Assembly: GCF_013402815.2 (NCBI RefSeq)
Contig: NZ_CP058601.1
Coordinates: forward strand, 2,604,001 to 2,668,000
Source of the DNA: Natrinema halophilum
GTDB taxonomy: Archaea > Halobacteriota > Halobacteria > Halobacteriales > Natrialbaceae
Reading direction: 5' to 3'
Length of the DNA: 64,000 nt
This document shows, piece by piece, positions 25,540-54,313 of the stretch (position 1 is the stretch's first letter; each line of letters starts with the position of its first letter). A program made the translations under genes and the position numbers. The notes below the pieces were generated by a model. The model was not told the DNA's origin. It made no database searches and saw only the letters and a program-made list of their open reading frames with translations.

Positions 25540-25935
25540 TTAATTATTAGATGGGGCTAATCCACGGCCGGGCTGAGAGGGAGAGAGTGCGTGCCAGGGG
25601 CCGAACCGCTCGAGAACGACCCGCCTCCCGCCACTGTCTGCAACGCAACACCGGCACCGGCGGTTTGGCGACAGCTGGGCATCATAGAGAAGGGAGCGCG
25701 TCTGGAGTTCGGCAATGCGAGCGGTGTTCGCGTCGGCTCTGTTCAAAGCAGCATCCGCGATTGCGTCTAGACCGCCGCGTCCCGTTTCGAAAGCGTCGAT
25801 ATCGTTCTCGAGAGAGTCGACGCGCTCCTGCGAAGCGGCGGTTCGATCGCGTCGTCGGGAGACGGAGCCTCGAAGGGCATCGTCACCGTGGACCACCGCC
25901 AGAACGGACGGACCCGTCGGACCCGTCGAACTCAT
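25540..25935 (-). pseudogene. Remnant of a coiled-coil accessory protein (cassette 1, third gene)
   Basis: The frame from the ATG at 25935 holds a recognisable coiled-coil segment: RVDSLENDIDAFETGRGGLD, then ALNRADANTARIAELQTR near residue 85. After that the sequence changes to Arg- and Cys-rich nonsense and stops at 25540. The segment IAELQTR also occurs in the broken gene at 52679-53010, where it is followed by ELEKGAHL. Intact relatives, as I recall them from haloarchaeal plasmids and proviruses, continue with a lengthy C-terminal domain that is absent here. So this copy has lost its 3' part. Confidence 0.55.
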
Positions 25936-26080
25936 GGCGGTCGTACGCTTCGAGCGTCGTCTCGAGGTTGCCAATCGCCTGCTCGACCGTCAACGAGGCG
26001 GGGATCGATCCCTCGAGGGTACGGATATCGTCGAGGACCTCCTCGAGCCTGATTCTCGTGCGGTCCCCCTCCGCGGTCAT
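25883..26080 (-). CDS. Small RLEEVL protein (cassette 1, second gene)
   Basis: A 65-residue protein starting MTAEGDRTRIRLEEVL. It predicts as mostly helical (RLEEVLDDIRTLEGSIPASL then AIGNLETTLEAYDRHEF). It aligns without gaps over about 45 residues with the 64-residue protein at 52488-52682: RIRLEEVLDDIRTLEG against RVRLEEVLADIETLDD. Its 3' end overlaps the start of the coiled-coil remnant. The gene seems intact, but its two operon partners are damaged. Function unknown; context points to a plasmid or provirus origin. Confidence 0.6.
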   Translation of the reverse strand: MTAEGDRTRIRLEEVLDDIRTLEGSIPASLTVEQAIGNLETTLEAYDRHEFDGSDGSVRSGGGPR

Positions 26081-26089
26081 CGGGGACCG

Positions 26090-26162
26090 ACCTCCGTGTG
26101 GGGGCTCGAGTCGGCGGGCTGTACGTCCGAACGGCTTCGTCCGTGCTGAGTTTAGTCGTCAT
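26090..26162 (-). pseudogene. 5' remnant of the first cassette gene (cassette 1)
   Basis: From the ATG at 26162 the frame reads MTTKLSTDEAVRTYSPPT and then runs out of frame into the next gene. The opening resembles MTTTIPPTEEVSDRAAENTD of the intact first gene at 52213-52491 in the second cassette. Most of the coding sequence (about 65 codons) is missing, so I treat this as a deletion remnant. The similarity is short and could be partly chance, but the shared position and order support it. Confidence 0.4.
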
Positions 26163-26275
26163 TGCTTCTGGTGACCAGAAGCGCGGTCCGGTGCTGGTAC
26201 ACCGGGCCGAGAGCGTTCTCGACCGTCCCACGCTTCCTCCTAACCAGTCTATTTGCAAAAACAATAATACTTAGG

Positions 26276-26327
26276 GTCTAAGGGACAAGGGTTGGGGACC
26301 AAGTCTAAAGCCATCGTCCCTTTAGAC
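26276..26327. promoter_or_regulatory. Inverted-repeat operator candidate upstream of the phiH-like repressor
   Basis: GTCTAAAG at 26303-26310 is separated by nine bases from its exact inverse CTTTAGAC at 26320-26327. A third, near-identical half site GTCTAAGGGAC at 26276-26286 faces GTCCCTTTAGAC at 26316-26327. The sites lie between the two divergent units of cassette 1, just before the winged-helix gene, the place expected for autoregulation. A TATA-like AATAATAC at about 26262-26269 precedes them. Confidence 0.6.
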
Positions 26328-26357
26328 GTGCGCACACTACCTATCGATCGAGATTCG

Positions 26358-26573
26358 ATGCTCGACGAAGACGATCTCGGACCAGCCGACGAGAAGTTAC
26401 TCGACATGTTGAACGAGGGGCGTGTTACTGCGCCCTTCGTCGCCGAAGAGACCGGCTACAGTCTACAGTACGTACGCGATCGTCTTGGACGGCTCGTGGA
26501 ACATGGCAACGCACGCAAAGTGTACGAAGGTCTCTACGAAATCGTCGATGACCCACGGAAAGATGAAAGATAA
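26358..26573 (+). CDS. PhiH1-repressor-like winged-helix protein (cassette 1)
   Basis: A 71-residue winged-helix protein starting MLDEDDLGPADEKLLDMLNE. The layout LLDMLNEGRVTAPFVAEETG, recognition helix SLQYVRDRLGRLVEHG, and wing KVYEGLYEIVDDPR matches the repressor type first known from halovirus phiH. The homologue at 51731-52030 shares the order DxxILxxxxxGRVxPxxxxxxL, QYxxxRxxRLxEHxxxxxL, YELxxDPR. Start codons upstream (TTG 26292, GTG 26328) are possible; the GTG would directly follow the operator. It is divergent from the damaged operon at 25540-26162. Confidence 0.75.
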   Translation: MLDEDDLGPADEKLLDMLNEGRVTAPFVAEETGYSLQYVRDRLGRLVEHGNARKVYEGLYEIVDDPRKDER

Positions 26574-26715: not shown

Positions 26716-27687
26716 ATGCTCACCGAGTATCAGCATGCGTCTGGCGACCACTGCGGGTCCGCGTCCCTCCGAAACCTCGCGACCTATTACGAGTGGGGGG
26801 TCGACGAAGCGTCGTGCTTTGGTCTCGGTGCAGGTATCGGCTTCGAGTACGATGAGTCGGGACCCGCCTCTCGTACGATACTGGGTCGAAGTGCGCACCT
26901 CGAGGCGGCGTTCTTCGAGACGCTCGGAATCTCGATCGCCCAAACGGACGGCCAGTCGAAAGACGCGGCCTGGGATGCGCTCGAAATCCAAGTCGAATCG
27001 GGACCGGTGCTGTGTTTCGTCGACCTCTTCTACCTGCCATATTTCGGAAGCGATACTCACTTCGGCCCTCACACGGTCGTCGTCATCGATATGGATGACG
27101 ACTCTGTGACCATTTCGGACAGCGAGTTCGCCGAGCCACAAACGGTCTCTCGAACGACGTTCGACGACGCCTGGAGTTCGGATCACGGGTTCTGGCCGCT
27201 CGAACGCCGTTGGCTTGCCGTCGAAAACCCCACCCCAACGGTCGCGACTGACACCGCGACGCTGGCGGCAATCGAACTGGCGGCGGAGACGATGGAAGAC
27301 GGCGGCAAACCCGAAAGTGGCGTGGGTGCTATTCGAACGTTTGCGGACGACCTTCCGGCGTGGACGACGTGCGATGACGTGCGATGGACCGCACGGTTTG
27401 CCTACCAGAACATCGAGCGCCGGGGAACGGGAGGTGGTGCGTTCCGCCGACTCTACGCTACCTTCCTCGATACCCTCGGCGCGGACGCCGGTCTCGACCC
27501 CGGATTCGGTGAGCGGATGCACCGAATCGCCGACGGCTGGACATCCCTTGGCAGCATCCTGAAGGCAGTCAGCGACGCCGACGGTGCAGCCGAGCGCACC
27601 GAGTACCTCACGGAGGCGAGCGACTTCGCACACGACCTCGCGGATCGGGAGGAGGCGCTGTTCGCGGACCTCGCGAAGGCAGTGTGA
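26716..27687 (+). CDS. BtrH/DUF4872-like protein
   Basis: A 323-residue protein with the papain-like N-terminal domain of the BtrH family: HASGDHCGSASLRNLATYY (Cys13 is the likely nucleophile), CFGLGAGIGFEY, CFVDLFYLPYF and HFGPHTVVVID (His as the likely base). The C-terminal helical half fits DUF4872. BtrH transfers an acyl group from a carrier protein in butirosin biosynthesis; related bacterial proteins occur in natural-product clusters, but their substrates vary. No carrier protein gene is near. It is followed after about 105 bases by a CPBP-family membrane protease. Confidence 0.8.
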   Translation: MLTEYQHASGDHCGSASLRNLATYYEWGVDEASCFGLGAGIGFEYDESGPASRTILGRSAHLEAAFFETLGISIAQTDGQSKDAAWDALEIQVESGPVLCFVDLFYLPYFGSDTHFGPHTVVVIDMDDDSVTISDSEFAEPQTVSRTTFDDAWSSDHGFWPLERRWLAVENPTPTVATDTATLAAIELAAETMEDGGKPESGVGAIRTFADDLPAWTTCDDVRWTARFAYQNIERRGTGGGAFRRLYATFLDTLGADAGLDPGFGERMHRIADGWTSLGSILKAVSDADGAAERTEYLTEASDFAHDLADREEALFADLAKAV

Positions 27688-36742: not shown

Positions 36743-39700
36743 CGAGATACCCCACGAGGGTCCGTCTGAAACGCCTGCGCTCCTCCTCGATATACCGAGC
36801 CAGTCGATCGCTCTCTCCCCACAAGGGTTCGTCTGAAACGGCCAGAATAGACGAATCGTCTGCCTCACACGGGATAAGCTTCAACCCCACAAGGGTTCGT
36901 CTGAAACTACCCTGAAGGCACGACCGTTGACATGGATTTCCGGGGGCTTCAACCCCACAAGGGTTCGTCTGAAACTCGAACAAGGTCCTCCGGACAGTGC
37001 TCGAGACCTGGCGCTTCAACCCCACAAGGGTTCGTCTGAAACCGCAAGATGGACCCGGACGATGTGGGTGGTTCTGCATGCTTCAACCCCACAAGGGTTC
37101 GTCTGAAACAGGAGGGACTCGACGCCCGCTTGCACCGACGCCTGGAGCTTCAACCCCACAAGGGTTCGTCTGAAACCATCTGCAATAACTGCTTGGCGGA
37201 TGAATTCGAAGAGGCTTCAACCCCACAAGGGTTCGTCTGAAACGTTCGAACGCAAGCAACTCGACAATCTCGAGGACGCTTCAACCCCACAAGGGTTCGT
37301 CTGAAACCTTCCTCTTCGCGCGCAACGGCGGTGCTCCGTGGGATGCTTCAACCCCACAAGGGTTCGTCTGAAACCGTAATATTCGTTTGCAGGTATTTTT
37401 CCATGGAGCTTCAACCCCACAAGGGTTCGTCTGAAACGAGCACGGCAGCGCCGGCGACTGGGTTCGACCGCGAGCTTCAACCCCACAAGGGTTCGTCTGA
37501 AACTCGATAATAACAATGACCACAGAAAACAAAGCGTTAGCTTCAACCCCACAAGGGTTCGTCTGAAACCGAGGTTGAGGTGGCCGCCCTCTGGTACCCC
37601 AAGGTGCTTCAACCCCACAAGGGTTCGTCTGAAACCGCCGTACTTCGTGCTCGAGCGATCTGTTCGCTCTTCCGCTTCAACCCCACAAGGGTTCGTCTGA
37701 AACCCGAACGGGCTGGTCAGCACGCCGCCAACTCGCGACGCTTCAACCCCACAAGGGTTCGTCTGAAACACTCATCGTACCACCTCCGGTAATTCACGTA
37801 CCATTGCTTCAACCCCACAAGGGTTCGTCTGAAACCGCTGGTCCGAAATGACCGGCTACGCTGGCGGGGCTTCAACCCCACAAGGGTTCGTCTGAAACCG
37901 CTGGTCCGAAATGACCGGCTACGCTGGCGGGGCTTCAACCCCACAAGGGTTCGTCTGAAACAACATCGCCGACATGAGGATTCCCCGCGGCCCGCTGCTT
38001 CAACCCCACAAGGGTTCGTCTGAAACCGTCGCCACGCTTTGCAGCGTTTACGAGTTCGGAGCTTCAACCCCACAAGGGTTCGTCTGAAACGCCACATGAC
38101 CTATGGCGGGATCATCCGCAACCGGCCGCTTCAACCCCACAAGGGTTCGTCTGAAACTGCTGCTACAACAGTCATTGTGTGGATTCTTTCGGAGCTTCAA
38201 CCCCACAAGGGTTCGTCTGAAACGGTTGCTATTGAGACGGATACCTTCCAGGGCCAGATGCTTCAACCCCACAAGGGTTCGTCTGAAACCGTCTAAATCA
38301 TGACTACAACACACTGGTACGTAGGGCTTCAACCCCACAAGGGTTCGTCTGAAACATTCATAAAACCATGGTCTATTCACGAAACAATCCATGGAGCTTC
38401 AACCCCACAAGGGTTCGTCTGAAACACGAAGTCTTTGGTGGACGCTGCAGGTGTGTCGTCGGCTTCAACCCCACAAGGGTTCGTCTGAAACCTGGACCCC
38501 GAACGAGACGGTAACTGTAGTCGAGTTTGCTTCAACCCCACAAGGGTTCGTCTGAAACTTTCACTCACTTTCATTACTACGTGTTCTTTACGAAAGCTTC
38601 AACCCCACAAGGGTTCGTCTGAAACCTGGATTCGTTCAGTCAGAGAGTCAATCTTAGACCGCTTCAACCCCACAAGGGTTCGTCTGAAACGATAGTGTTT
38701 TGAATCGGGCTCGAGCAGATGGGGCTTCAACCCCACAAGGGTTCGTCTGAAACAGTCTGGACGATACTTCTAATCTCGTCTTCCGTGAAGCTTCAACCCC
38801 ACAAGGGTTCGTCTGAAACGGGTTCATATCCGGCTATGCCGCGTCGTAATGTAAGCTTCAACCCCACAAGGGTTCGTCTGAAACCACTCCGCCACGAGCA
38901 TGCCTTTCTGCCAGAGTTTGCTTCAACCCCACAAGGGTTCGTCTGAAACGGTTGTGAACAGCCCGATAGCGGCACCAGAGGCGATCGCTTCAACCCCACA
39001 AGGGTTCGTCTGAAACCCGGATGTTTGGCTAGCGTCAACACCGGAAATCTAGGCTTCAACCCCACAAGGGTTCGTCTGAAACAACAACTAAACTATGGGT
39101 CATCAACTATATTTCAGGGGGCTTCAACCCCACAAGGGTTCGTCTGAAACAATGGCGATATCGCCATCTCCGCGACGGTAGCGGACGCTTCAACCCCACA
39201 AGGGTTCGTCTGAAACGATGGCAACCAGTGGGGAACGGTCAAACATCAATCGCTTCAACCCCACAAGGGTTCGTCTGAAACGTCGACACGTTCCGGGATA
39301 CGGTTGATCTGACGGTCGCTTCAACCCCACAAGGGTTCGTCTGAAACGATCTGATACACTATGGATCTGAAAGTTATCAGGACGCTTCAACCCCACAAGG
39401 GTTCGTCTGAAACTCCCCTCTTGGACTGGGGTTCTGGTGGCTCGCGCGCAAGCTTCAACCCCACAAGGGTTCGTCTGAAACCCCCGACAGACGTGATTGC
39501 GGATAGCAAAGGCCCGCCGCTTCAACCCCACAAGGGTTCGTCTGAAACATCAGTCATCTTGATGGGTATCCGGCGTGTGTTTGCTTCAACCCCACAAGGG
39601 TTCGTCTGAAACGCCCGAACAGCGCCGGGCGATCGTGACCTATGTCGACGCTTCAACCCCACAAGGGTTCGTCTGAAACCATAGAGGTTCGATCCCGGTG

Positions 39701-39744
39701 CGACGCCGTCGTAGGCTTCAACCCCACAAGGGTTCGTCTGAAAC
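36743..39744 (-). CRISPR. CRISPR array 1: 44 canonical 30-bp repeats plus 2 degenerate
   Basis: Canonical repeats run from 36878-36907 to 39715-39744. On the plus strand the unit starts GCTTCAACCCCACAAG and ends GGTTCGTCTGAAAC. Spacers are 33-40 bases. Two degenerate copies close the left end (36743-36772 and 36810-36839); degeneration there and the leader on the right show that the array is read on the minus strand, giving crRNAs with a 5' handle ending TTGAAGC. The repeat is the haloarchaeal type I-B kind. Spacers at 37836-37868 and 37899-37931 are identical. The array directly follows cas2, separated only by the leader. Confidence 0.98.
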
Positions 39745-39851
39745 CATGCCCTGTATTCGGGCTACAGACCCTAAGTGTGGAGGTCACGATAAAGAACTTC
39801 CGTCGACCTCCAATAGTCGATTGACCCCGGGGGGTCGATGATATTCTCCCA
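39745..39851 (-). promoter_or_regulatory. Leader of CRISPR array 1
   Basis: The 107 bases between the first repeat and the cas2 stop codon. They contain CCGTCGACCTCCAATAGTCG at 39800-39819, identical to 51205-51224 in the second leader, and a palindrome GACCCCGGGGGGTC at 39823-39836 that is nearly repeated there. Next to the first repeat both leaders have CATGCCC. A TTTATCG element on the minus strand near 39787-39793 is placed to start transcription into the array. Confidence 0.8.
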
Positions 39852-40112
39852 CTATAGGAACCGCTGGTCTTCTGTCGGATCCTCACCGAAGACGGTTCGA
39901 TTGAGAAGAGAATCTGATGAAAGCTCATAGATGATGGTCGATTCACCGGGTTCAAGCAGGTCTTCGATCTCCCCACGAAGTTGTTGTAGATCACCATCCG
40001 ATATCTCCCCCTCCAAGACAGAGTTTTGAACGTGGGTCAAATACCGTCGGCCGAGTTTCAGCGCTTTGTGCGTTCGATCTGCCTGGAGATCGTATACCAT
40101 TATCACGTACAT
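39852..40112 (-). CDS. cas2: CRISPR-associated endonuclease Cas2
   Basis: An 86-residue Cas2 (MYVIMVYDLQADRTHKALKL), a ferredoxin-fold protein that forms the spacer-integration complex with Cas1. The conserved Asp in MVYDLQ (residue 8) and the QNSVLEGEIS strand are visible. It is the last gene of the cas operon; its ATG follows the cas1 stop by a single base. A longer frame beginning upstream would run into cas1, so the ATG at 40112 is the natural start. Confidence 0.95.
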   Translation of the reverse strand: MYVIMVYDLQADRTHKALKLGRRYLTHVQNSVLEGEISDGDLQQLRGEIEDLLEPGESTIIYELSSDSLLNRTVFGEDPTEDQRFL

Positions 40113-40113
40113 C

Positions 40114-41106
40114 TTACCACCACCGCTTGAACGGTTCGTACCGTTCGCCAGCAAGGAGATGCTTCTTGAGCTTATACGCCTCGAGCCGTAATAGATATTG
40201 ATAGCTAACCTTTCGATTTAAGTTTGGATGGTCGACGGTTCGTTCGAGCGTCTCTTCAAACGCTTTAGAATAGGTTTCGCGGCCGTGTTCGGTCAGCAAA
40301 CACGAACCTAGTTCGGTTTCGAAGTCATCTCGAGTGATCTGCCCTCGATTGACGAGGCGGAAGAGAACGCGATCCGCGAGTATCGGTTTGAATAGGTCTG
40401 CAAGATCGAGAGACAGTGAATAGCGGCGTTCACCAGGTTCGTGAAGGTAGCTGATCGCGGGATCGAGTGCAGTCGCTCGTATCGCAGACACACAGTTCGC
40501 GTAAACCAACGAATTTCCGAACGAGATCAAGCTATTAATCTCGTTGGGTGGCGGATTGTATTCACGGTTCGAAAGGCGAAACTCTTCGGGTAAAATCTCG
40601 TTGAACGTGCGGTAGTATGCTTTTCGAGCGGTCGCCTCGATTCCCATCAATTCGTTAATGGGTAGACCATCATCAATACGAGAAGCAGCTTGCTCGAGGG
40701 CAGAAATTTCGGCCTCGAGATCGCGATCACGACTGTCGTAATAGACTGCATTTGATCGCATATTGTGAATACTTCCCGAGACGATCGATGCAGCCAGTTC
40801 TCGTCTATGTTCGGTATCATCGTAGGCTTGGACTTGCGAGACGACTGTTTGACCGGAGGTTTGGCCTCGCTCGGGCATTATTGATCCAGCGTAGTAATCT
40901 TCCCATCCGAAGACATGCAGGGCCACACCTTGGTCGTTCAAAAAGGAGATCAGCCGGGTATTGAAGTCGATCTGACCGTGAACGAACAGTGCTTCGGCGT
41001 TTTCGATTGGGAGGTGCTTCTTCTCATCACCGTCTGTCACGAGCCGGATAGTGTCGTCCTTACGTTCAATTCGTCCGTCTGAAAACACGTGGTAATTCCG
41101 ATCCAT
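40114..41106 (-). CDS. cas1: CRISPR-associated endonuclease Cas1 (type I-B)
   Basis: A 330-residue Cas1 integrase starting MDRNYHVFSDGRIERKDDTI. The N-terminal beta domain is followed by the helical catalytic domain with the metal ligands Glu in MGIEATARKAYY, His in SYLHEPGERRYSLSLDLAD and the nearby Asp, and the tail ends with YEPFKRWW. It inserts new spacers at the leader end together with Cas2. The start follows the cas4 stop with one or two bases between, so translation is coupled. Confidence 0.96.
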   Translation of the reverse strand: MDRNYHVFSDGRIERKDDTIRLVTDGDEKKHLPIENAEALFVHGQIDFNTRLISFLNDQGVALHVFGWEDYYAGSIMPERGQTSGQTVVSQVQAYDDTEHRRELAASIVSGSIHNMRSNAVYYDSRDRDLEAEISALEQAASRIDDGLPINELMGIEATARKAYYRTFNEILPEEFRLSNREYNPPPNEINSLISFGNSLVYANCVSAIRATALDPAISYLHEPGERRYSLSLDLADLFKPILADRVLFRLVNRGQITRDDFETELGSCLLTEHGRETYSKAFEETLERTVDHPNLNRKVSYQYLLRLEAYKLKKHLLAGERYEPFKRWW

Positions 41107-41108
41107 TG

Positions 41109-41657
41109 TCAACACCAGCAGAAATCGTGGTACGCACAGGAATCACAGAACGGCTTCTCCACGGCGGGTGGCGGCATTTCTTTGCTCACCACGTCGTAGA
41201 TTCCCCGAATCGCATCTTCGACTTTCATCTTCCGTTCGTCTGTGAGTTCGACCGATTCACGATTGCGTTCTTTAGGATGAGCGAGCACGCCATCCGTCGT
41301 GACTTCGGCAATCTGCTCGAGGTACCAGAGGTAGTACGAGAGTTGCATCTTCGCAGGTTTTGTAAGCGCCGAAGAAGGTTTGACCTCGATGACACGACCG
41401 TCTTCAAGTAAGTCAATCGAGATCATCCCGAGGTGGAGATTGCGCCGATTTTCATCATAAGCCGTATTATCTATGCGAGTCCCGCGGACGACGGTAGGGT
41501 TTTCACGGTCAATCTCGAGATTACGCGATTCGAACCAGAGTTCGCGCTTACAAACGTGGTAATACTGCATCATCACGCCCGTAACACGAAACGGGTTATC
41601 AACAGGATTCCCGCGAGCAGTCTCGAGTAGACGGGTAACGGGATCGGTTTCCGTCAT
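41109..41657 (-). CDS. cas4: CRISPR-associated exonuclease Cas4
   Basis: A 182-residue Cas4, a RecB-like nuclease with an iron-sulfur cluster that trims prespacers and helps choose the PAM. Cluster cysteines are Cys36 in YHVCKREL and those of the C-terminal CDSCAYHDFCWC. The nuclease motif is DLLEDGRVIEVKPSS, and QLSYYLWYLE is motif III. Its first four bases overlap the cas3 stop, showing translational coupling in the operon. Confidence 0.95.
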   Translation of the reverse strand: MTETDPVTRLLETARGNPVDNPFRVTGVMMQYYHVCKRELWFESRNLEIDRENPTVVRGTRIDNTAYDENRRNLHLGMISIDLLEDGRVIEVKPSSALTKPAKMQLSYYLWYLEQIAEVTTDGVLAHPKERNRESVELTDERKMKVEDAIRGIYDVVSKEMPPPAVEKPFCDSCAYHDFCWC

Positions 41658-44266
41658 AGGAACCGGCGTTCTACGGTGTTGTCAGGGACGACGAACCCAG
41701 TAGTAGGATCGAAGAAGTTCTTGAATTCCGGTCTCGATGGATCGACGTAGCGGAGATTCGTTTCGTGATGAACTGGGGGAAGGTCCATAAGTTCACGTGC
41801 TTCTTTCGAATCAGGCTGGTAGACCGGAATTGAAACCTGTCTCGACCGTAGTTCGTCGAGGAGCGGGTTTATCTTCGAGAATTCGTATTGATCAAATGCA
41901 TCCTGGATCGAATCGACAATCTCGCGTTCGTTAGTTGTTCGGCAGACGACCACGTCAACTACGTGGCGCTGGTCGATAAGCGATAGCGATGCGAGTTTAT
42001 CACCCCTCGCCTCGTCAACATACGTGACAAACTCTTCCTTTCCGACGTTTTTCTCATGATGTAATTTTTTGTGATATTGATCGACGGCTGTCCGAGAGAC
42101 AACCATCTCCCCAAGAGAATTACTGTCGGATCGAACGGATTCCAGAGTTTCGGCGGCGACCGGGAGGAGTGACGTCCCCCGGTTGTACACCGCTTCGGCT
42201 GGTGTCTTTTTTTGGTCATCGGGTGCATCAAGCCACCAGACAGTAACGTCACCTCGATCCTGTTCAAACGAACGGTTGCAGCGGCCAGCCGCCTGGACAA
42301 TACTGTCAATAGGGGCGAGATCTCGATAGACGCGGTCGAAGCTGATATCGACGCCTGCTTCGACAAGTTGGGTTGACACCGTCGCGAGTGTGTGATCACA
42401 CTCGGTGAGTGTTTTCGCCGTCTCGATGAGATGGAGTCGATCTATCGGACGAAGCCGAGTCGAGAGATGAAGCAGTGATCGGTCCCCGATAGTCGTAACT
42501 TGACCGGCGATCGCTGTAGGGTCGATATCATCGGCGTCATCGGTGGCCTTGAGTTGCTCGGCATATACCTGACCGACGTTCACCAGTTCCGGATTCGCAG
42601 TAGTAACGTGTTCCGTGAATTTTCTCGCACTGTCGATTGTATTACAGACCACTAGTGAGGAATCGTCAGCCTCGAATGCGTCATTGACCTCCGAAATTGC
42701 TTCCGCATAGGGTTTTGGATTTGCCTGATCAGCGATATACCGCTCTGTCGATGGGTCGAGGTGATAGTGCACGCGTTCAGCGGCCTCGAAGTGTCTGTCC
42801 GGATTGTCAACGAGTTCGGTCGCATCGTCGAATAACCGGGGCTGTGTTGCGGTCATCGCGATGACCGTTGCATCGTAGCGGTCCGTGAGAATCGACACGA
42901 GGCGCGGAACGAGCTTCCACCACTCGAGAGGGAGGCTTTGTGGCTCGTCAAGAATAACCACGCTGTTTCTGAGAGCAGGAAGTTTCATCGATTGTGAATT
43001 AGACGGTCCTGCGAGGCTCTCGAACAGTTGTACAAACGTTGTCACTGTCAGTCCAGCGCGCCAACTCTCAGCAAGTATTCCGGCGACGTCGTCATTTTCG
43101 TCAGCAACGTCGGGATCATTGTCGTTAATCGTCGTTTCCGAAAGGTGGTGGTGGGCAGTGAGGAGTCGGCCTGTAGTGTCAGTTTTGAAAACGTCCTCAG
43201 CCTCGTTGATCACTTGGTCGATGATACTGGTAAAGGGCAACGCGTAGATGATACGCTGACCGTCGAGTCGGTCTCGAACTTTAAGCCCTGCTGAGAGTCC
43301 GGACAACGTCTTCCCCATCCCCGTCGGAAGCGTAAGCGTTGCAACGCCCCCGCCTTCATTAGCGAATTTCCCGGCGTTCTCGAGAACGGCCGCTCGAGCA
43401 CGCGATCGGTGATAGTTCAGGCGCTCGCTGTGAGTGCCGTCCGGATCGGAACTTGACTCTCGCTCGAGATCATCGACGTACCCGTTCAGCTGTTCAAGAG
43501 TTGGTTTCTTTGCCTCGTAAGTGCCAGCAGATGGCCCAACACTGTTCGCCGCCGAGGCAGCGCTCGTCTTATCCGCGAGGACAAGCGATCCCCAGCACTC
43601 GAGCACCAGCGCGTAGCAGGACTCGGATACCGCCTCTCTGTTGATTCCGACACCGGTACCACTCGTTGCGACAGTCGATTCGATCTCCCCAAGTAGATCA
43701 CCGAATTCGGTACGGAACGAGTTCCACGATCCGGCCCCTGCCGTTGCCGTCTCGAACACCTCCTGAGCTAGTTCGGGTACGTGGTCGTTTATGTCATCGA
43801 GTTGCATCGCGATCATGGCCTGCTGCTTTTCCGCAGCATTCTGGTTCCCTTCCGAAACGTTACTACGGCGATGAGAGCGTTCAAACACGTATTTCGGGAT
43901 GTCTGGTAACGTACCATGATGCTTTGCGACAGCAACGAAGCCTGCCAGGCAGGTTTCAGTGTCGAACCCCCGAGCCTTGAGAGCATAGTATGCGGCGAAA
44001 GAGCCGACTGGCGCGTGATATCGTAACTGCTCAAATTTTGGGCTCCCGGATACCACTCCAAGGTACTGCTGGAAGTAGGTCGTCGCCTTCCCGAAGTCGT
44101 GAACGTACGCAATCGTCTCGACGATATCCCGAATCGGTTCTTCGGCAGGCGTCTTTGCATCCGCAGGAACTACGTATCGGACCCGCTCGGCGACATCTTC
44201 CAAGTGATCGAAAAGATGAACACCATTGTGTTTCTCTTCCGGGGGATGAGAATACCGAATTGGCAT
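41654..44266 (-). CDS. cas3: CRISPR-associated nuclease-helicase Cas3 with fused HD domain
   Basis: An 870-residue Cas3, the enzyme that degrades target DNA after Cascade binding. The HD nuclease comes first, with VHDFGK at 55-60 (His56-Asp57) and KHHGTLPD near 115. The helicase has Walker A PTGMGKT at 314-320, the DEPQ box at 440-443, motif III in AMTATQPRLF and motif VI QAAGRCNR. Both activities look complete. It is between cas5 and cas4. I begin at the ATG at 44266 (MPIRYSHPPEEKHNG), one base after the cas5 stop. Confidence 0.96.
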   Translation of the reverse strand: MPIRYSHPPEEKHNGVHLFDHLEDVAERVRYVVPADAKTPAEEPIRDIVETIAYVHDFGKATTYFQQYLGVVSGSPKFEQLRYHAPVGSFAAYYALKARGFDTETCLAGFVAVAKHHGTLPDIPKYVFERSHRRSNVSEGNQNAAEKQQAMIAMQLDDINDHVPELAQEVFETATAGAGSWNSFRTEFGDLLGEIESTVATSGTGVGINREAVSESCYALVLECWGSLVLADKTSAASAANSVGPSAGTYEAKKPTLEQLNGYVDDLERESSSDPDGTHSERLNYHRSRARAAVLENAGKFANEGGGVATLTLPTGMGKTLSGLSAGLKVRDRLDGQRIIYALPFTSIIDQVINEAEDVFKTDTTGRLLTAHHHLSETTINDNDPDVADENDDVAGILAESWRAGLTVTTFVQLFESLAGPSNSQSMKLPALRNSVVILDEPQSLPLEWWKLVPRLVSILTDRYDATVIAMTATQPRLFDDATELVDNPDRHFEAAERVHYHLDPSTERYIADQANPKPYAEAISEVNDAFEADDSSLVVCNTIDSARKFTEHVTTANPELVNVGQVYAEQLKATDDADDIDPTAIAGQVTTIGDRSLLHLSTRLRPIDRLHLIETAKTLTECDHTLATVSTQLVEAGVDISFDRVYRDLAPIDSIVQAAGRCNRSFEQDRGDVTVWWLDAPDDQKKTPAEAVYNRGTSLLPVAAETLESVRSDSNSLGEMVVSRTAVDQYHKKLHHEKNVGKEEFVTYVDEARGDKLASLSLIDQRHVVDVVVCRTTNEREIVDSIQDAFDQYEFSKINPLLDELRSRQVSIPVYQPDSKEARELMDLPPVHHETNLRYVDPSRPEFKNFFDPTTGFVVPDNTVERRFL

Positions 44267-44267
44267 T

Positions 44268-45086
44268 TCAGACGAACACCACGGTCCGACCGTCGACTCG
44301 GGCCGGGTCGACGTTCTTGACCGTGAGCGGACCGGCGTCAGGATTGTACGTGTACGCCGTGAATCCGGCAGTCGTTCGACCGCCCGCATCACGTCTCATG
44401 AACGCAGGCGATTCCTCGACCTGACATCGTGTCCCCGGCTCGAGAACGACATCTTCGACGGCGTTCGGAACGGCGGAGTTCACTTCGGTTTGATCGCCCC
44501 CGTGGTCAGTTTCGACTTCGAAATTGCCGTGATACTCGATTTCTGCGAGGTGCTCGGAGAGGCCAAGACTGGGAACGTAGTGACTTTTTCCCGCCTCAAG
44601 GGTATTTCGGAGTTCGCGATAGCGTTCGTCATTTGCAAGTGAAACATCGATGCGATAGGCTGGTTCCACGAGGACCTCGTAGTTGTGTTGCTGGCGAAGC
44701 GTCGTAGGATCTGGTAGCTTCACGCTGATTTTTCCGCGACCATTGAGCGATTGGAGATTCCCGGCTGACGTGGAGAGGGTGTTCATCGGCATGTTGATCG
44801 TTCGGATCTCGCGAACGGGTTCGATCGCAATAGCCGAGTTGCCGGGCGAAAACAACTCGTAGTAACCATCCCGTTCGATCCCCATAACGGCGGCGAGTAG
44901 CCCCGCAACTGTCGTTCGTGGGATAATCCGGTAGGTCTGCTTGACGATATTGCCTTCGATCCGCCGAAAGTGCCCCCACGGTCCCCGGATGGTAATGGAA
45001 AGGCAGCGATCCGGAACCTCGGTGGAATCAGCGCTTTCGCCGTTATCACCATCATTCGACCACTGTTCAAGCGATTCCTGCCCCAT
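44268..45086 (-). CDS. cas5: Cascade subunit Cas5 (type I-B)
   Basis: A 272-residue RAMP protein that caps the 5' handle of the crRNA in Cascade. After a 25-residue acidic tail it has the Cas5 opening CLSITIRGPWGHFRRIEGN, then QTYRIIPRTTVAGLLAAVMG, both typical of haloarchaeal Cas5 (Hmari subtype). It ends with PARVDGRTVVFV. It is preceded by cas7 with a gap of two bases and followed immediately by cas3. Confidence 0.93.
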   Translation of the reverse strand: MGQESLEQWSNDGDNGESADSTEVPDRCLSITIRGPWGHFRRIEGNIVKQTYRIIPRTTVAGLLAAVMGIERDGYYELFSPGNSAIAIEPVREIRTINMPMNTLSTSAGNLQSLNGRGKISVKLPDPTTLRQQHNYEVLVEPAYRIDVSLANDERYRELRNTLEAGKSHYVPSLGLSEHLAEIEYHGNFEVETDHGGDQTEVNSAVPNAVEDVVLEPGTRCQVEESPAFMRRDAGGRTTAGFTAYTYNPDAGPLTVKNVDPARVDGRTVVFV

Positions 45087-45088
45087 CG

Positions 45089-46165
45089 TTAGTTGGTGTC
45101 ATCCGGGAGAGTTGCAGTGTGTTCGTCGTATACATCAACGACTTCAACGGCGTCTGGTCCGATGGCGTCACGGAGAGCACTGTACAACACCTCGGGCCCG
45201 CCGACCTCACCGTCGTGAGAAAGTTCCAGGACGTCGCTTGCAACAACTCGAACCCGCTCGATCCGGCTGCTTGCATTTTCGAGACGGCTAACGAAATCGT
45301 CTATCTCGAGAGTCAAGTCCCGAACAGTGCGAAGTTCCTCATCGGGTTTCGACTGATCGCCGTCGAGTTCGATATCTCTGTCGAGTCCGCCGAGATGGAA
45401 ACTTTCCTCAGCGTACTCGACTCGGCAGTAGAGGCGAGGTTCCTGCCCAACCTTGCTCCGACTGATGGTCTGATTTTTGATCGCACGCCAACAGAGCGTG
45501 TCAATCCGCTCGACGTCGCCTTCGGTAAGTTTCGTATCTTTGGCACCGTGTTCGTCAACGAGCCCATGGAATCGGATTAAACCGTACTGGATGCGATGGT
45601 CGTCGAGATCGAATCCACCCTGCTGTTTGTTCTCCTGAGTCGCGATCACGCTTGTCAGGCTGTCGTACTCTTCGTTCTCGTTGACGGCGTGAATCGATTT
45701 CCCCGGCGAGAATTGAACGGGACCGGTGAAGTGATCCGGCAGGTGCTTTGCGTATTCGTCGTCGGTATCGACCGACATAGTCGCACCGAAGTAACGAACG
45801 TCGACGCTGTTTTCGAGGAATTCACCGAAAATATCCTCGCGAAACTGATCAGCTTCGTCGTCGTCTGATAGATCGTACTCGTCATAGTTGACGTCTTTCA
45901 GCCGATCCTCAAGCAATTCTCCTCGTGTGTACCGGTTCCCATCTTCCTGGACGTTTCGGATATAGACTCCGTGACCGTCATCGTCGAGTTGATCGCGAAT
46001 ATACCGCTTTAATCGAACGTCGGTGACGATTGCTTGCTGGGTCTGTGGATCGATCCGCGGCCGATTCGCACCACTAAGCGGATTCCCGTTAGGGTTCGCA
46101 TCGACAGCATCATACAGGAAGACCATTTCTGAGCGATTCTGAACGGTATCGGTTGTGTCTGACAT
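45089..46165 (-). CDS. cas7: Cascade backbone subunit Cas7 (Csh2-like)
   Basis: A 358-residue Cas7 of the type I-B Csh2 group, which polymerises along the crRNA. Recognised by RSEMVFLYDAVDANPNGNPL near the N-terminus, RPRIDPQTQQAIVTDVRLKR, and VRYFGATMSV. The C-terminus is acidic and disordered. The gene lies one base after cas8b and two bases before cas5, as in the Haloferax volcanii order. Confidence 0.95.
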   Translation of the reverse strand: MSDTTDTVQNRSEMVFLYDAVDANPNGNPLSGANRPRIDPQTQQAIVTDVRLKRYIRDQLDDDGHGVYIRNVQEDGNRYTRGELLEDRLKDVNYDEYDLSDDDEADQFREDIFGEFLENSVDVRYFGATMSVDTDDEYAKHLPDHFTGPVQFSPGKSIHAVNENEEYDSLTSVIATQENKQQGGFDLDDHRIQYGLIRFHGLVDEHGAKDTKLTEGDVERIDTLCWRAIKNQTISRSKVGQEPRLYCRVEYAEESFHLGGLDRDIELDGDQSKPDEELRTVRDLTLEIDDFVSRLENASSRIERVRVVASDVLELSHDGEVGGPEVLYSALRDAIGPDAVEVVDVYDEHTATLPDDTN

Positions 46166-46166
46166 A

Positions 46167-48314
46167 TTAATAATCCTCCTCGAGGTCTGCTTGTTGGTCG
46201 GTCTCTGTCTGGTTCCAGTCGGGATGATCGTTCATGCCGTAGGTGATTCCAAGTGCGTAGTAGAACCGGAGATCGTCGGTACCAATCTCCCACTCATCTG
46301 GGTCGGGATCGAGGATCGTCTCGCGGAGCCGATCGACAATGTGCTCAGCTTTCGTCCCGGGATAGGATTTCCCTCCCTTCTTCTCTTGGCGGGTATAGGT
46401 GAGCGTCTTTGCGATCGTTTCTTGGGTTATCTTCTTGATCCGCGACCGAGTAATAGACTTCACTGGGTATTGATCGACCAGTGTCGTCGAACGATCTTCA
46501 CTGTATTCCTGATAGCTCCCGATATCGCCTACGAGCGCGCCTAACAGGAACGCGCCCCGTCGTTCACTCGTGACCGACTCTTCACCGGACAGGGGAGTGA
46601 GCGCAGGTGTGTCTTCGATGAACGATTCAAGTTTCGTCTCGGCGGGGTAGCCCCCGTCGGTAGCTAAGCTGTCTGGTATGTCCATTGTGTGTTCTTCGTA
46701 GCGCGGTTCTCGTGTGATTGGTTCTTTACTCGGATCGGTCGTTGTCAATAACCCGAGATCACCGTCGGCCAATGCGCACAGTTGGGCAAACTGGCTCGCG
46801 ACCAGAAACGACGGGAATTCGTCGTACTCGTCGTCGGTTTCCTCGCTGATGATACGATCGACGTACTCCCCGAGGAGTATCTCAACGGGGATTGGCTCGC
46901 CGCCTAACACACTGACGAGCGCCTCGATCCGCGGGTCGTCGGCATCAGCGTCAGCATCGTCGCGTTCGCCGAATGTCTGATAAAAGTACCAGCCCGTCGA
47001 GACGGAATGGAGCCGTTGGTTATTAGTCGAAATCAGATCCCATGACTCGTTCGTCGGCAACGGAGCCGTCCAGTCGTTCTGAGTGTTGAATGCGGAGATG
47101 TTCTCGACAAGACGATTGTGAGTGAAAGCAAGTTCTCGTGGATATTGGAGCCGTCCATTTAGCGTTTCGCCGAAGACATCGTACCGTGACATCTGATGCG
47201 GCATCACGGCGGAGACGTAGAACCGGAGATCGGCCTCATCGATGTCGAGTTCACGCCGTTTAATATACGCATCCTCGATCGGAGTCGTGTCTTCGTCACC
47301 CGACAATGCTCGATAGAGTAGTCCGTACAGGTTGTACGCTTTCTCGGGCGATATGCGACCGAAAAAGTATGGAAGGTAGTACACTTTTGTCCCAAATGTC
47401 CGGTACGTACAGGCCTCGACGAATGCCTCGGCATTCATCACCGTCACTGCGGCATCCTCTGAAATTGGATGTGATCGCCACGCTTCTTCGATGTCGAGTC
47501 CCGGGAATTTCTCGAGCTGTTTGCCGAGGTAGTAATTCTGTGGATCTTCGGAGGTACCGACCGTTCGAGATGGTCGTCCCGTGACGAGATCGGTCGCATC
47601 ACCCGAGGAATCGTTTGCCTTGTTTTTGGTGACAAGTTTCGAAAGCTTTCGTTCACGCATCGCCTCAAGGAAGACGTCGATTTCACCGGGCCAACGATAC
47701 TCGCCATTTGGTTCAGTTCGCACTTGAACGGTCAAGAGTGCCGTCGCCGATTCGCCGCCAAGACTTTTTATCACACCGTCCTCAATTGACTCGAGAACTT
47801 GCTCATTCTCCGCGAGTTCAGCGAGTTGATCGATAATCCAGCCATCATCGTGGGCACCGGCGACTTTCTGCACCACGTCATCCATTGCCCACGCAGTCAG
47901 CCGTTCTTTCGCGTAGCGTGCAAGTTTTTCGGGATCGCTATTTCGGCCAGCCTGATGGGTAACGCTGTGGTCGATCCCACGCGCTGCGGAGTACTTGCAG
48001 TGGCTAACCTGCTGAACCAGTCCATCCGTGTATCGCGTCAGCTGGATGGGGCCGATATTATCGGTAGCCAATCGCGGTTGGTCATTCGAAACATCGACTC
48101 TGACGGCGATCAAACTGTCCTCAGTATCGATGAGGTCGTCCGCAGCATCCGGTGTAAGGTAGGGCGCGTATTCGCCGCCGCCCGTGGTTGCAAGCGTGTA
48201 GAGTTTTCCGTAGAGGTACTGCAGGTCCCTCAGCGATCCAATCGGCGAATTCGGCAACTCTTCTGCTAAATCCGCTTCGGAATATGTCTCTCGAAACCCC
48301 TCAGGCGAAAGCAT
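46167..48314 (-). CDS. cas8b: Cascade large subunit Cas8b (haloarchaeal type)
   Basis: A 715-residue protein starting MLSPEGFRETYSEADLAEEL. By its place between cas6 and cas7 and its size it is Cas8b, the subunit that reads the PAM and recruits Cas3. The sequence is divergent, with stretches such as VYYLPYFFGRISPEKAYNLY and FLLGALVGDIGSYQEYSED that occur in haloarchaeal Cas8b. Its ATG lies inside the end of cas6, giving a 14-base overlap. No zinc finger cysteines are obvious. Confidence 0.9.
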   Translation of the reverse strand: MLSPEGFRETYSEADLAEELPNSPIGSLRDLQYLYGKLYTLATTGGGEYAPYLTPDAADDLIDTEDSLIAVRVDVSNDQPRLATDNIGPIQLTRYTDGLVQQVSHCKYSAARGIDHSVTHQAGRNSDPEKLARYAKERLTAWAMDDVVQKVAGAHDDGWIIDQLAELAENEQVLESIEDGVIKSLGGESATALLTVQVRTEPNGEYRWPGEIDVFLEAMRERKLSKLVTKNKANDSSGDATDLVTGRPSRTVGTSEDPQNYYLGKQLEKFPGLDIEEAWRSHPISEDAAVTVMNAEAFVEACTYRTFGTKVYYLPYFFGRISPEKAYNLYGLLYRALSGDEDTTPIEDAYIKRRELDIDEADLRFYVSAVMPHQMSRYDVFGETLNGRLQYPRELAFTHNRLVENISAFNTQNDWTAPLPTNESWDLISTNNQRLHSVSTGWYFYQTFGERDDADADADDPRIEALVSVLGGEPIPVEILLGEYVDRIISEETDDEYDEFPSFLVASQFAQLCALADGDLGLLTTTDPSKEPITREPRYEEHTMDIPDSLATDGGYPAETKLESFIEDTPALTPLSGEESVTSERRGAFLLGALVGDIGSYQEYSEDRSTTLVDQYPVKSITRSRIKKITQETIAKTLTYTRQEKKGGKSYPGTKAEHIVDRLRETILDPDPDEWEIGTDDLRFYYALGITYGMNDHPDWNQTETDQQADLEEDY

Positions 48315-49116
48315 TCTCTCCCTCGAGTTCCGTCTCACCGGGTCGTGTCCGATCAGCGACGTTGACGAACCCCAGTCCAAGCGAATTTCGTTCCCCGAGC
48401 CCGCAATCGAGAGCGAGATTCAGGTGTCGCCGGTGGTGATCGTCTCGGACCGTGTAGTCGAACCGCCACTTGCTCAAGACGTACGTCATCTCCCGCCCTT
48501 CGGTTACCGTCACTGGGACGGCGAACGTCTTGATGAGTTCATAGCCGTCGAATAGCTCGTCGTCAACATCACTTGGACCTGGTAGATGCTCGTGTGCGAA
48601 CAGCCGATGTTTCTTATCGAGGTTCGCCTCGAGTTGTTCCACGAGCGGCCGGGTCGTGTGCTCGGGTTGCCAGAAGACCGCCGTCTCCCCGCCGGGATGG
48701 TCGATTCCGTATTCATCGCACCGCCACGGCGGAATTCGAACGAGCAGTCCGGTCCCAGTCTCGAGCGTTCCCCTGGTTCCGGGTTCGCCGACGTCAGGCT
48801 CGAGCGAGGTCACGTCCTCGACGTGAAACGGCATCTCGCCGATGTTCAATTCACGATCATCGAGGAGGTCCTCGGCCACGTGCGCGAGAAGTTCCTCATC
48901 ATGCGAGGCGACGAGCAGATTGCGCTCGTCTCCGTGTCGCATATCCCCCGGTGGAAACGGGTTCGACATTACGAACCCCGGCGGCTCACCGGAATCGTGC
49001 CGGCCGTCATACGCAGTCCCCTCGAGCGCACGCCACAATCGTCCACGAAGTTTGTGATGGTAGGCGTTGTCGTAGGCTGTATCCGCTCGAGCAGACAAGT
49101 GAGCCATGATCCGCAC
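48301..49116 (-). CDS. cas6: CRISPR RNA-processing endonuclease Cas6
   Basis: A 271-residue RAMP nuclease that cuts the repeat RNA. The first strand and helix read RIMAHLSARADTAYDNAYHH and lead on to KLRGRLW; the C-terminal Gly-rich loop is GLGERNSLGLGFVNV. I start at the GTG at 49116, which supplies the complete first beta strand; an ATG at 49107 would truncate it. It is the first gene of the cas operon, which is expected for haloarchaeal I-B systems, and the shared repeat of both arrays fits one Cas6. Confidence 0.93.
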   Translation of the reverse strand: MRIMAHLSARADTAYDNAYHHKLRGRLWRALEGTAYDGRHDSGEPPGFVMSNPFPPGDMRHGDERNLLVASHDEELLAHVAEDLLDDRELNIGEMPFHVEDVTSLEPDVGEPGTRGTLETGTGLLVRIPPWRCDEYGIDHPGGETAVFWQPEHTTRPLVEQLEANLDKKHRLFAHEHLPGPSDVDDELFDGYELIKTFAVPVTVTEGREMTYVLSKWRFDYTVRDDHHRRHLNLALDCGLGERNSLGLGFVNVADRTRPGETELEGENAFA

Positions 49117-49159
49117 CGTCAATAGTCACCCCTACTGATAATCATCCGAATGCCTCCGA

Positions 49160-49169
49160 TTTATAAAAG
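49160..49169 (-). promoter_or_regulatory. TATA box of the cas operon
   Basis: On the minus strand this reads CTTTTATAAA, about 44-53 bases upstream of the cas6 GTG at 49116. It is the only strong promoter element in front of the eight-gene operon, whose members are otherwise packed with overlaps or gaps of at most two bases. Confidence 0.65.
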
Positions 49170-49269
49170 CAACATCATAAAACTATTCGCCGACCACCAG
49201 ATGATCGGGAATCCAACTGAGGTTCGGGTGAAAGGTAGCGGAGTTATCCTCCGACGAATGGTTGTCTCT

Positions 49270-51512: not shown

Positions 51513-51734
51513 TCAGAAGCGTTCGCTCGAGTCGCCGGATTCGAATAGCGTACCGGCGTAGCCAAGATTCAGAAGTGACGCAGACCACTCACTCGCTGGC
51601 CACAGCAGTGCGAGCGGTGGGGACATCGTTTCACCGACTACTATAGAGTGAAACCCGAACTCAGTCGACGGAAAATGTTCGAGATAGGAAACCCAGTTCA
51701 GGAGTGAGTCGATACTGATGGCCCAGATGGTCAC
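51513..51734 (-). CDS. Possible small gene coupled to the repressor, or remnant
   Basis: A GTG at 51734 overlaps the stop of the winged-helix gene by the four bases GTGA and opens a frame of 73 residues (MTIWAISIDSLLNWVSYLEH and so on, ending FESGDSSERF). The overlap is of the kind used for coupled genes, and the peptide is hydrophobic and acidic. No family is recognised. It could also be chance. Confidence 0.35.
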   Translation of the reverse strand: MTIWAISIDSLLNWVSYLEHFPSTEFGFHSIVVGETMSPPLALLWPASEWSASLLNLGYAGTLFESGDSSERF

Positions 51735-52030
51735 TCATCCTGTTTACTCTCTTCTCGAGGATCTTCACGAAGTTCGTACACGCCAGTATCGAGCAAATTT
51801 TCGATGTGTTCGTGTTCAGCGAGCCGTTTCATCCGCTGATTGATGTACTGGCGCGAGACGACATTATCCTCGCTAACATCGGTATTTTCATCCGCGGCAT
51901 CCTGCTCGAGGAACCGGCGGATGAGGGTTGGCGAGACTCGTCCGTCATGCATGTACTCAAGAATCCGCCTATCAAGCTCGTTTAGGTCCTCGCCGGAGAG
52001 TGTCACAAGTGATTGGTTACTGTTCAACAT
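51731..52030 (-). CDS. PhiH1-repressor-like winged-helix protein (cassette 2)
   Basis: A 99-residue protein starting MLNSNQSLVTLSGEDLNELD. The helix-turn-helix runs DRRILEYMHDGRVSPTLIRR, then RQYINQRMKRLAEHEHIENL, with the wing LDTGVYELREDPREE. It is a homologue of the 71-residue repressor at 26358-26573, with an insertion of about ten residues (DAADENTDVSEDNVV) between the helices. It is divergent from the operon at 52213, exactly as in cassette 1. It probably controls its own and the neighbouring promoter through the palindrome at 52066-52077. Confidence 0.75.
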   Translation of the reverse strand: MLNSNQSLVTLSGEDLNELDRRILEYMHDGRVSPTLIRRFLEQDAADENTDVSEDNVVSRQYINQRMKRLAEHEHIENLLDTGVYELREDPREESKQDE

Positions 52031-52077: not shown

Positions 52078-52212
52078 AATCCTATTAGAAGTTTCTATCG
52101 TAAATTTAAAGAGTATTGATGGTGGATCAGTAGGCAGAGGCGTAGAATGGCCGGAAACCAATTCTCGGCCGGGTGCTGGAGCACCCGACCTGCGTCCTCC
52201 AGTAGAAGGACA

Positions 52213-52491
52213 ATGACGACTACGATACCACCTACGGAAGAAGTTTCGGATAGGGCTGCAGAGAACACCGATATCGTCCGCGGTCAATGTTCTCGAGGCA
52301 ACGATGGAATTGACGAACAAACGGAAGCAAAACTCCATAAAAAGGGCGATAAACTCGAAACAGGAGCTAATAGGGACCTGAAACGAGTTGCAACTGCAAT
52401 CACGACGATCTGTCTTGATCATGGTGAGTTGTTCTTGACGTCGGTCGATTTCTCAGTCGCTATCGTGAACCCGGAGGCCGATCATCCATGA
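52213..52491 (+). CDS. First gene of cassette 2, unknown function
   Basis: A 92-residue protein starting MTTTIPPTEEVSDRAAENTD and ending FSVAIVNPEADHP. It is acidic and helical in its middle (EAKLHKKGDKLETGANRDLK), with a hydrophobic segment ATAITTICLDHGELFLTSVD. Its stop overlaps the next start as ATGA. A short relic of a similar start occurs in cassette 1 (26162). I recall such genes in haloarchaeal plasmids, but no function. Confidence 0.6.
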   Translation: MTTTIPPTEEVSDRAAENTDIVRGQCSRGNDGIDEQTEAKLHKKGDKLETGANRDLKRVATAITTICLDHGELFLTSVDFSVAIVNPEADHP

Positions 52492-52682
52492 CACCCACCG
52501 CTCACGACCACACTCGAGTCCGTCTCGAGGAAGTGCTCGCCGATATCGAGACGCTCGACGACCAGCTACTGGCGCCGCTGTCGCTCGGGCCGGCGATCCG
52601 GAACGTCGAGGAGACGATCCAGGTATACGAGCGACTCGAGCCCGGCGAAATATGGAACGACGCGCGGGAGGGTGACCGATGA
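52488..52682 (+). CDS. Small RLEEVL protein (cassette 2, second gene)
   Basis: A 64-residue helical protein starting MTPTAHDHTRVRLEEVLADI, homologous to 25883-26080. It overlaps its upstream neighbour by four bases (ATGA) and its downstream neighbour by four bases (ATGA at 52679), so the three genes form one coupled operon. It is intact. Function unknown. Confidence 0.65.
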   Translation: MTPTAHDHTRVRLEEVLADIETLDDQLLAPLSLGPAIRNVEETIQVYERLEPGEIWNDAREGDR

Positions 52683-53175: not shown

Positions 53176-53607
53176 CTACTCGCATATCGTCTGTATTCGG
53201 TCTTCGACCCACTCCAGCAACTCGAAGAGAATGTCCAGATGATGGTCCGACTCGAGTGGTGTCGACGCGATATCAGACGAGGCGTCCGGTGGCGGATGAA
53301 AATGTTCCCGGGGTCCAACCGGTTTGGGGTGTCGATCCCAGCGACATTGCCAGGTCTCGTTCGGACGAAATTCGAGGTAGTGGACGGTGTAGTCACCGCC
53401 GACGAACCAGCGAACATCGACTCGAACGGCGGTGACGAAAGACGGGTACTGCGCGTCGTCCAGTTGTATCTCGAGAACGCGGGGCGAGATGCTGTCAGGC
53501 CGAAACTCCCAGTCCAAACAGAGCGGATGCGTCGCTGCACGCTGTGCGAGTATTTCGAGCGTCGAAACGTCCAGCGGTCCACTCGGGCCTTCGGTTCGCC
53601 CGGTCAC
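53176..53607 (-). CDS. DUF6516/toxin-like partner protein of a helix-turn-helix gene
   Basis: A 143-residue protein. I start it at a GTG at 53607, which overlaps the upstream stop as GTGA; this gives MTGRTEGPSGPLDVSTLEIL. Key pattern: LDWEFRPDSISPRVLEIQL, WFVGGDYTVHYLEFRP, CRWDRHP and HFHPPPDASSD, with an acidic tail. The HYLEF and HFHPP pattern is shared by haloarchaeal proteins that follow winged-helix genes, which resemble the DUF6516/TumE-like toxins. Role as a toxin is inferred from this and from the coupled HTH gene. An upstream ATG at 53697 would make the overlap 94 bases and seems unlikely. Confidence 0.62.
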   Translation of the reverse strand: MTGRTEGPSGPLDVSTLEILAQRAATHPLCLDWEFRPDSISPRVLEIQLDDAQYPSFVTAVRVDVRWFVGGDYTVHYLEFRPNETWQCRWDRHPKPVGPREHFHPPPDASSDIASTPLESDHHLDILFELLEWVEDRIQTICE

Positions 53608-54134: not shown

Positions 54135-54313
54135 GGCTCCCTCTTCGGGCGGAGAACGCATATATCTTGTCTGCAAAAAATATATGGTAGGGACAGGCGC
54201 TCGAAATTGCCTCGAGATCCACTCTCGAGGACAGTACCTAACACTCGAGAACCTCGCTTTTTGCTCCGAAAGAACGATCGACAGTGCGACGACCGGCGGA
54301 GCACCGGATCGAA

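Follow-up and report, generated by a model that had tools for sequence, protein, structure and literature searches.

A folded RNA at the operon start unites two decayed cassettes of Natrinema halophilum with relatives in haloarchaea and some of their viruses

Two decayed gene cassettes of Natrinema halophilum and at least 60 relatives, in haloarchaea and in some haloarchaeal viruses, are united by a folded RNA at the operon start that had not been described. The genes around it are exchanged from copy to copy; among the cassette relatives, the leader RNA is the constant part. From the covariation of its helices, the leader may be regarded as a new RNA family with a strongly supported structure. 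Its layout looks like that of an RNA switch in which the closing helix P1 and a start-codon hairpin, P4, exchange a strand.

The cassettes of the window and their relatives

The window, the whole stretch of 64,000 nucleotides that was analysed, comprises positions 2604001-2668000 of the chromosome contig C1 from a 4.84 Mb genome whose nearest kin are Natrinema species. The initial annotation described two cassettes in mirror-image orientation, and this was borne out: each is composed of a winged-helix repressor divergent from a small gene, here called RLEEVL, and from the remains of a coiled-coil gene. The two RLEEVL genes encode a pair of proteins (25883-26080, minus strand; 52488-52682, plus strand) that aligns over 45 residues without gaps at 51% identity (E = 2e-13). 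The repressor pair (about 26331-26573, plus strand; 51731-52030, minus strand) aligns over 83 residues at 28% identity (E = 1e-10). Judged from these alignments, the pairing of the cassettes is far beyond chance. Both repressors matched PHROG 38164 (1e-30 and 4e-16) and also PHROG 2440, a "transcriptional regulator". The features of the two cassettes are as follows.

Cassette 1
26292..26573, plus strand: divergent winged-helix (PhiH1-like) repressor; PHROG 38164, E = 1.3e-30; start codon uncertain (TTG 26292 or ATG 26358)
26149..26238, minus strand: structured leader RNA; model R1, 33.4 bits, E = 2e-7, outside the seed; fold z = -3.67
GCTTCTGG-tca-CCAGAAGC, minus strand: P4 hairpin of the leader, one nt 5' of the ATG; the leader also has the P1-P2-P3 three-way junction
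25932..26162, minus strand: ORF1, 76 codons, start at 26162
25883..26080, minus strand: RLEEVL small protein, 65 aa; E = 2e-13 to the RLEEVL of cassette 2
25663..25881, minus strand: coiled-coil/winged-helix remnant (residues 31-96 of 284); E = 5.5e-7

Cassette 2
51731..52030, minus strand: divergent winged-helix repressor, 99 aa; PHROG 38164, E = 4e-16; BJ1 repressor, E = 1e-3
52135..52226, plus strand: structured leader RNA; model R1, 76 bits, seed member; fold z = -2.41
GTCCT..AGGAC, plus strand: P4 of the leader, abutting the ATG at 52213
52213..52491, plus strand: ORF1, 92 codons, beginning MTTTIPPTEEVSDRAA
52488..52682, plus strand: RLEEVL small protein, 64 aa
52753..52902, plus strand: coiled-coil/winged-helix remnant (residues 77-125); E = 1.4e-15

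ORF1 starts at 26162 (minus strand) and 52213 (plus strand), directly behind the leader RNA that the initial annotation had missed. The ORF1 of cassette 1 is considered decayed since only its N-terminal M-x7-E-x-V motif is conserved and the remainder overlaps RLEEVL out of frame. The damage reported for the third gene was genuine insofar as fragments are present in both cassettes; the proposed central deletion was not seen, the C-terminal part being undetected in either.

Neither the number of copies nor the number of genes in the operon held. RLEEVL occurs 13 times in the genome, some copies being on the chromosome and others on a second contig of 425 kb. In the intact operon, RLEEVL and the third gene are separated by a fourth gene, which was seen in neither window copy. 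Three essentially intact loci (L011, L014 and L015) have about 2.4 kb in common at 83-87% identity. Their order is a divergent regulator, ORF1, RLEEVL, a multi-cysteine ORF (L011:4165-4557) and a 284-aa protein (L011:4756-5610). The latter is the intact third gene, and it served as the reference for both window fragments.

The 284-aa protein has a coiled coil at its N terminus, and its C-terminal region of about 100 residues is winged-helix-like in an AlphaFold model from seven sequences (pLDDT about 85-90 there); the model obtained with four sequences was poor. A structure search with the model gave no match at E<=0.001. Searches of Pfam, NCBIfam, PHROGs and the PDB returned no family for RLEEVL and coiled-coil noise only for the third gene, which had no representative in the phage collection. 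A role for the third gene as a replication protein was considered and dropped, there being no match of any kind. It is carried as a "hypothetical protein" by many haloarchaeal megaplasmids (45 plasmid records) and is present in 26 of the 29 genomes of the genus Natrinema. On the plasmids pNMAG01 and pHTUR04, the RNA-led layout lies upstream of the third gene, and in pNMAG01 the ATG predicted behind the RNA coincides with the start annotated for WP_012996860.1. A zinc-ribbon protein (L032:4871-5623) that weakly matches a Cas12f1-like TNB domain (E = 1e-6) separates the RNA-led ORF1 of pNMAG01 from the third gene.

Elsewhere, the gene families do occur together. Each of the 13 RLEEVL genes of the genome has the RNA ahead of it, and so do almost all of the close homologues that were fetched from relatives. 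The repressor, RLEEVL and the third gene are exchangeable, and distant RLEEVL homologues are found with no detectable RNA.

As to origin, the suggestion that the cassettes are relics of integrated elements agrees with the full-length copies on megaplasmids and chromosomes, with RNA-led early-type operons in viral contigs and with a divergent repressor in 50 of 66 copies; an integrase adjoining the window copies was not established. In the ORFs that directly flank the two cassettes, no integrase, structural or replication genes were noted. To read the pair as a relic of mobile-element modules is supported. The CRISPR arrays between the cassettes look unrelated, as the spacers of the array beside the second copy match no fetched cassette. 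These arrays (repeats 36878-51149) contain a 30-nt repeat in 72 exact copies. Directly adjoining cassette 1 is a BtrH_N / DUF4872 protein (26716-27687; Pfam E 1e-27 and 1e-29). Adjoining cassette 2 on the minus strand (53176-54416) is a DUF7342 regulator-like gene followed by an overlapping, unassigned gene of 179 aa, which together resemble a two-gene unit.

Structure, promoter context and distribution of the leader RNA

In an alignment of the DNA upstream of RLEEVL, some 90 nt between the TATA box and ORF1 stood out as conserved. A structured 5' RNA of about 75 nt heads every copy. It consists of a three-way junction, in which P1 closes the adjacent hairpins P2 and P3, and the P4 hairpin that follows. 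The covariance model R1 was made from a seed of 11 copies, with L014 and L021 left out, and it recovers the leader of cassette 1 independently. Across 66 aligned copies, standard pairs make up 98.2% of the pair cells, and both sides have changed in 16 of the 19 pairs. Both-side changes were counted in 187 cells as opposed to 39 in shuffles, with none of 500 shuffles coming close; since the alignment (A4) was fitted to the structure of the model, these pair counts are inflated, with the margin still large. The covariation signal was lost when the pair register was slid by any offset. The leader thus has the covariation-backed structured domain that is expected at the 5' end of a riboswitch transcript. 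G-U pairs are frequent on the operon strand (28 of 66 copies at one pair), and since they would be A-C mismatches on the opposite strand, the leader is most likely an RNA read in the direction of the operon. A further hairpin in the coding region, P5 (CGAAA..TTTCG), had been proposed from 13 copies and was rejected, as it is not general over the 66.

A search against Rfam 15 identified no family at or above the gathering score on the leader, the only matches being CRISPR repeats and one nearby tRNA; relaxing the search to E 10 added nothing relevant on the leader.

In 41 of the 54 copies that have a TATA box, its centre is at -27 to -31 from the first nucleotide of P1. From this spacing, P1 is predicted to start at or next to +1. 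The 50 divergent regulators belong to two families (39 and 11), and both window cassettes present the arrangement of a phiH-type immunity region, in which a winged-helix repressor and an early operon run divergently. The genes behind the RNA vary and include RLEEVL operons, the third gene with another small ORF, and virus-type operons.

Ten copies, of which seven are in the genome of the window, form a subfamily that has a common TATA region and no adjoining regulator. Its members (L009, L013 and L016-L020 on C1 and C2; L046, L067 and L068 in relatives) consist of the RNA and ORF1, in some cases with RLEEVL. Their promoter is of the type CTATAAGTAACT, and L017 and L019 are 91% identical over 560 bp. 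This subfamily is possibly domesticated or a distinct mobile unit.

Within the genus, R1 gave 65 matches in 21 of 29 genomes. At a threshold of E<=0.001 per genome, matches were obtained across the Halobacteria in 68 of 292 genomes and 33 of 77 genera. In a phylum-wide sample of 148 genomes, R1 matched haloarchaea only. The leader is also present in three viral contigs (L080, L083 and L174). In L174 the RNA is followed by a SWIM-finger ORF1, PCNA, a DNA methylase and a primase, and the RNA of L083 is flanked on its other side by a divergent regulator. Such gene content is as expected for the leader of an early region.

The overlap of P1 and P4 and its possible meaning

The 5' arm of P4 lies within the 3' strand of P1. 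In 62 of 66 copies, as compared to a shuffled mean of 18, P4 stops 0-2 nt short of the AUG of ORF1, and in 58 of 66 it has at least 3 nt in common with P1 (against a mean of 9 and at most 17 after shuffling of the sequence from P1 to the ATG). The shared strand differs among copies (GTCC, GCTTC, GTCTT, GCCTT, GCTGG) and both of its partners change with it. When P4 arms were swapped between copies, a mean of 24 and a maximum of 33 still fit, versus 61 of 66 with their own. The computed energies of the P1 and P4 forms differ by a mean of -0.4 kcal/mol, with 50 of 64 copies within 3, values that are rough only, being calculated for 37 C and 1 M NaCl. Behind the AUG, the first 12 codons of ORF1 keep a constant spacing in most copies (M-x7-E/K/D-...) and the rest of ORF1 differs.

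Because the 3' strand of P1 doubles as the 5' arm of P4, the two helices may compete by strand exchange; at the level of sequence overlap, P4 is a mutually exclusive helix able to hide the start region. We consider it probable that the cassettes are decayed repressor-controlled early-operon modules of haloarchaeal proviruses or plasmids, in which the exchange between P1 and P4 adds a second, post-transcriptional control. In such a module, the repressor would decide whether the operon gets transcribed. The leader would start at the transcription start, and P1-P2-P3 would fold first. In the P1 state, proposed to be ON, the 5' end of the mRNA would be closed and the stretch before the AUG would be free. 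In the P4 state, proposed to be OFF, P4 would take the outer part of P1, the 5' end would open and a hairpin would be placed against the AUG. A trigger, either a ligand or a protein, or the kinetics of folding would set the choice, and the first gene would be controlled together with the coupled genes behind it. We infer the exchange and its effect on translation from the overlap; the direction and the trigger given here are guesses.

The leader might instead be a fixed 5' structure that protects the early mRNA from a 5' exonuclease, or that acts as a viral translation enhancer and helps to place the ribosome at an AUG without a Shine-Dalgarno sequence. P4 would then stack with the inner part of P1, and the two would coexist. 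The position of P1 at the predicted +1 suits protection of the 5' end. Moreover, P4 can coexist with about five inner base pairs of P1, and often only the outer 3-6 nt are common to both. A fixed structure has no need, however, for P4 to overlap P1 or for the overlap to co-vary between copies, and we regard this reading as unlikely. Self-repression of translation, with the leader as the binding site of RLEEVL or of the coiled-coil/winged-helix protein, would account for the position of every RLEEVL gene of the genome behind the RNA. The RNA also heads operons that lack both RLEEVL and the third gene, so that no encoded protein is always present, which makes such a loop very improbable.

Processive antitermination, in which nascent RNA binds RNA polymerase and permits read-through of a long early operon, has a precedent in the put RNAs of phage HK022. 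The leader would be well placed for it, lying at +1 of early-type operons regardless of the repressor upstream or the genes downstream. Antitermination does not account for the near-constant position of P4 against the start codon or for the constant spacing of the first 12 codons of ORF1, and the solo copies head operons of just two small ORFs; it is held to be quite improbable. Inverted repeats are typical of operators, and an intergenic site that adjoins a repressor could be an element acting as DNA, whether an operator, a cruciform or a recombination site. Against this are the G-U pairs throughout the operon strand, the three-way junction in a conserved order, the start at the predicted transcription start and the tie of P4 to the AUG, which together leave a DNA element with hardly any likelihood.

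Comparison with known systems

R1 gave no match on phiH1, phiCh1, BJ1, pNMAG01 or pHTUR04. For sequences on which R1 failed, a descriptor of the architecture was used, written after the family had been seen; accepted matches score at least 68.5, spurious ones up to 66.5, and shuffled sequence gave 3 matches in 236 kb. As in the cassettes, the immunity (L) region of phiH has RepR divergent from an early transcript, T4, with a long leader that starts in a three-way junction. The phiH1 record puts the mapped start of this early lytic transcript at 34556, the very base at which a strong three-way junction begins opposite repR (fold z = -5.3), and phiCh1 has a counterpart junction. In contrast to the cassettes, the phiH T4 leader has a further large hairpin, its first ORF lies about 175 nt downstream and the downstream gene is RepH and not RLEEVL. 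In both viruses the start codon is much further downstream, the link between P4 and the AUG was not seen and there is no R1 score. On architecture, phiH and phiCh1 may be placed with the family through the likeness of the junction and its position, and not through P4. The leader of another early transcript of phiH, T1 (150 nt, L131:13583-13732), is strongly structured (z = -4.0) with a closing helix at the mapped 5' end, and an annotated antisense transcript runs across it.

The Halorubrum virus BJ1 resembles the cassettes in having a repressor, ORF6, divergent from a leader with P1, P2, P3 and a P4 that abuts the ATG. ORF6 is related to the cassette 2 repressor (E = 1e-3). BJ1 differs in that it is too diverged for R1 and has other downstream genes, its layout having been found by eye and with the descriptor. 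The three-way junction is absent from the ChaoS9 leader.

On paper, the leader is similar to translational riboswitches, having a 5' junction domain and a start-codon hairpin that shares a strand with the closing helix. It is unlike them in that it has no Rfam riboswitch match, is found on mobile elements rather than at metabolic genes, and gives no indication of a ligand or binding protein. Hardly any natural RNA switch is known from archaea, the fluoride riboswitch of T. kodakarensis being the only one stated to be experimentally shown (PMC8241225). Control by an RNA that hides the start is possible in haloarchaea, since a synthetic riboswitch of this kind functions in Haloferax volcanii (PMC8241225). 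The CreT toxin RNAs are small RNAs of haloarchaeal CRISPR loci (PMC8501985). The leader resembles these in being a small haloarchaeal RNA, and cassette 2 adjoins a CRISPR array; it is unlike CreT in that no CRISPR-Cas link is seen at the other loci read and it heads ordinary multi-gene operons.

No description of this leader RNA was found in the literature, in a coverage outside which most subscription-journal papers and preprints lie, and a full-text search returned no natural RNA switch for archaeal viruses. There is an even chance, in our estimation, that the early operons of haloarchaeal viruses and plasmids have their first gene controlled by a widespread family of RNA switches, not described before, which adds an RNA layer to the decision between lysis and lysogeny or to establishment, with the repressorless chromosomal copies being relics or domesticated decoys. 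Many mRNAs of haloarchaea are leaderless, and the leader RNA provides a direct test of how translation starts on structured leaders in these organisms. It may also serve as a tag by which the early regions of proviruses and plasmids in haloarchaea can be found, together with the variable small genes behind them, and it points to a possible function of the leader in the classic early transcript of phiH.
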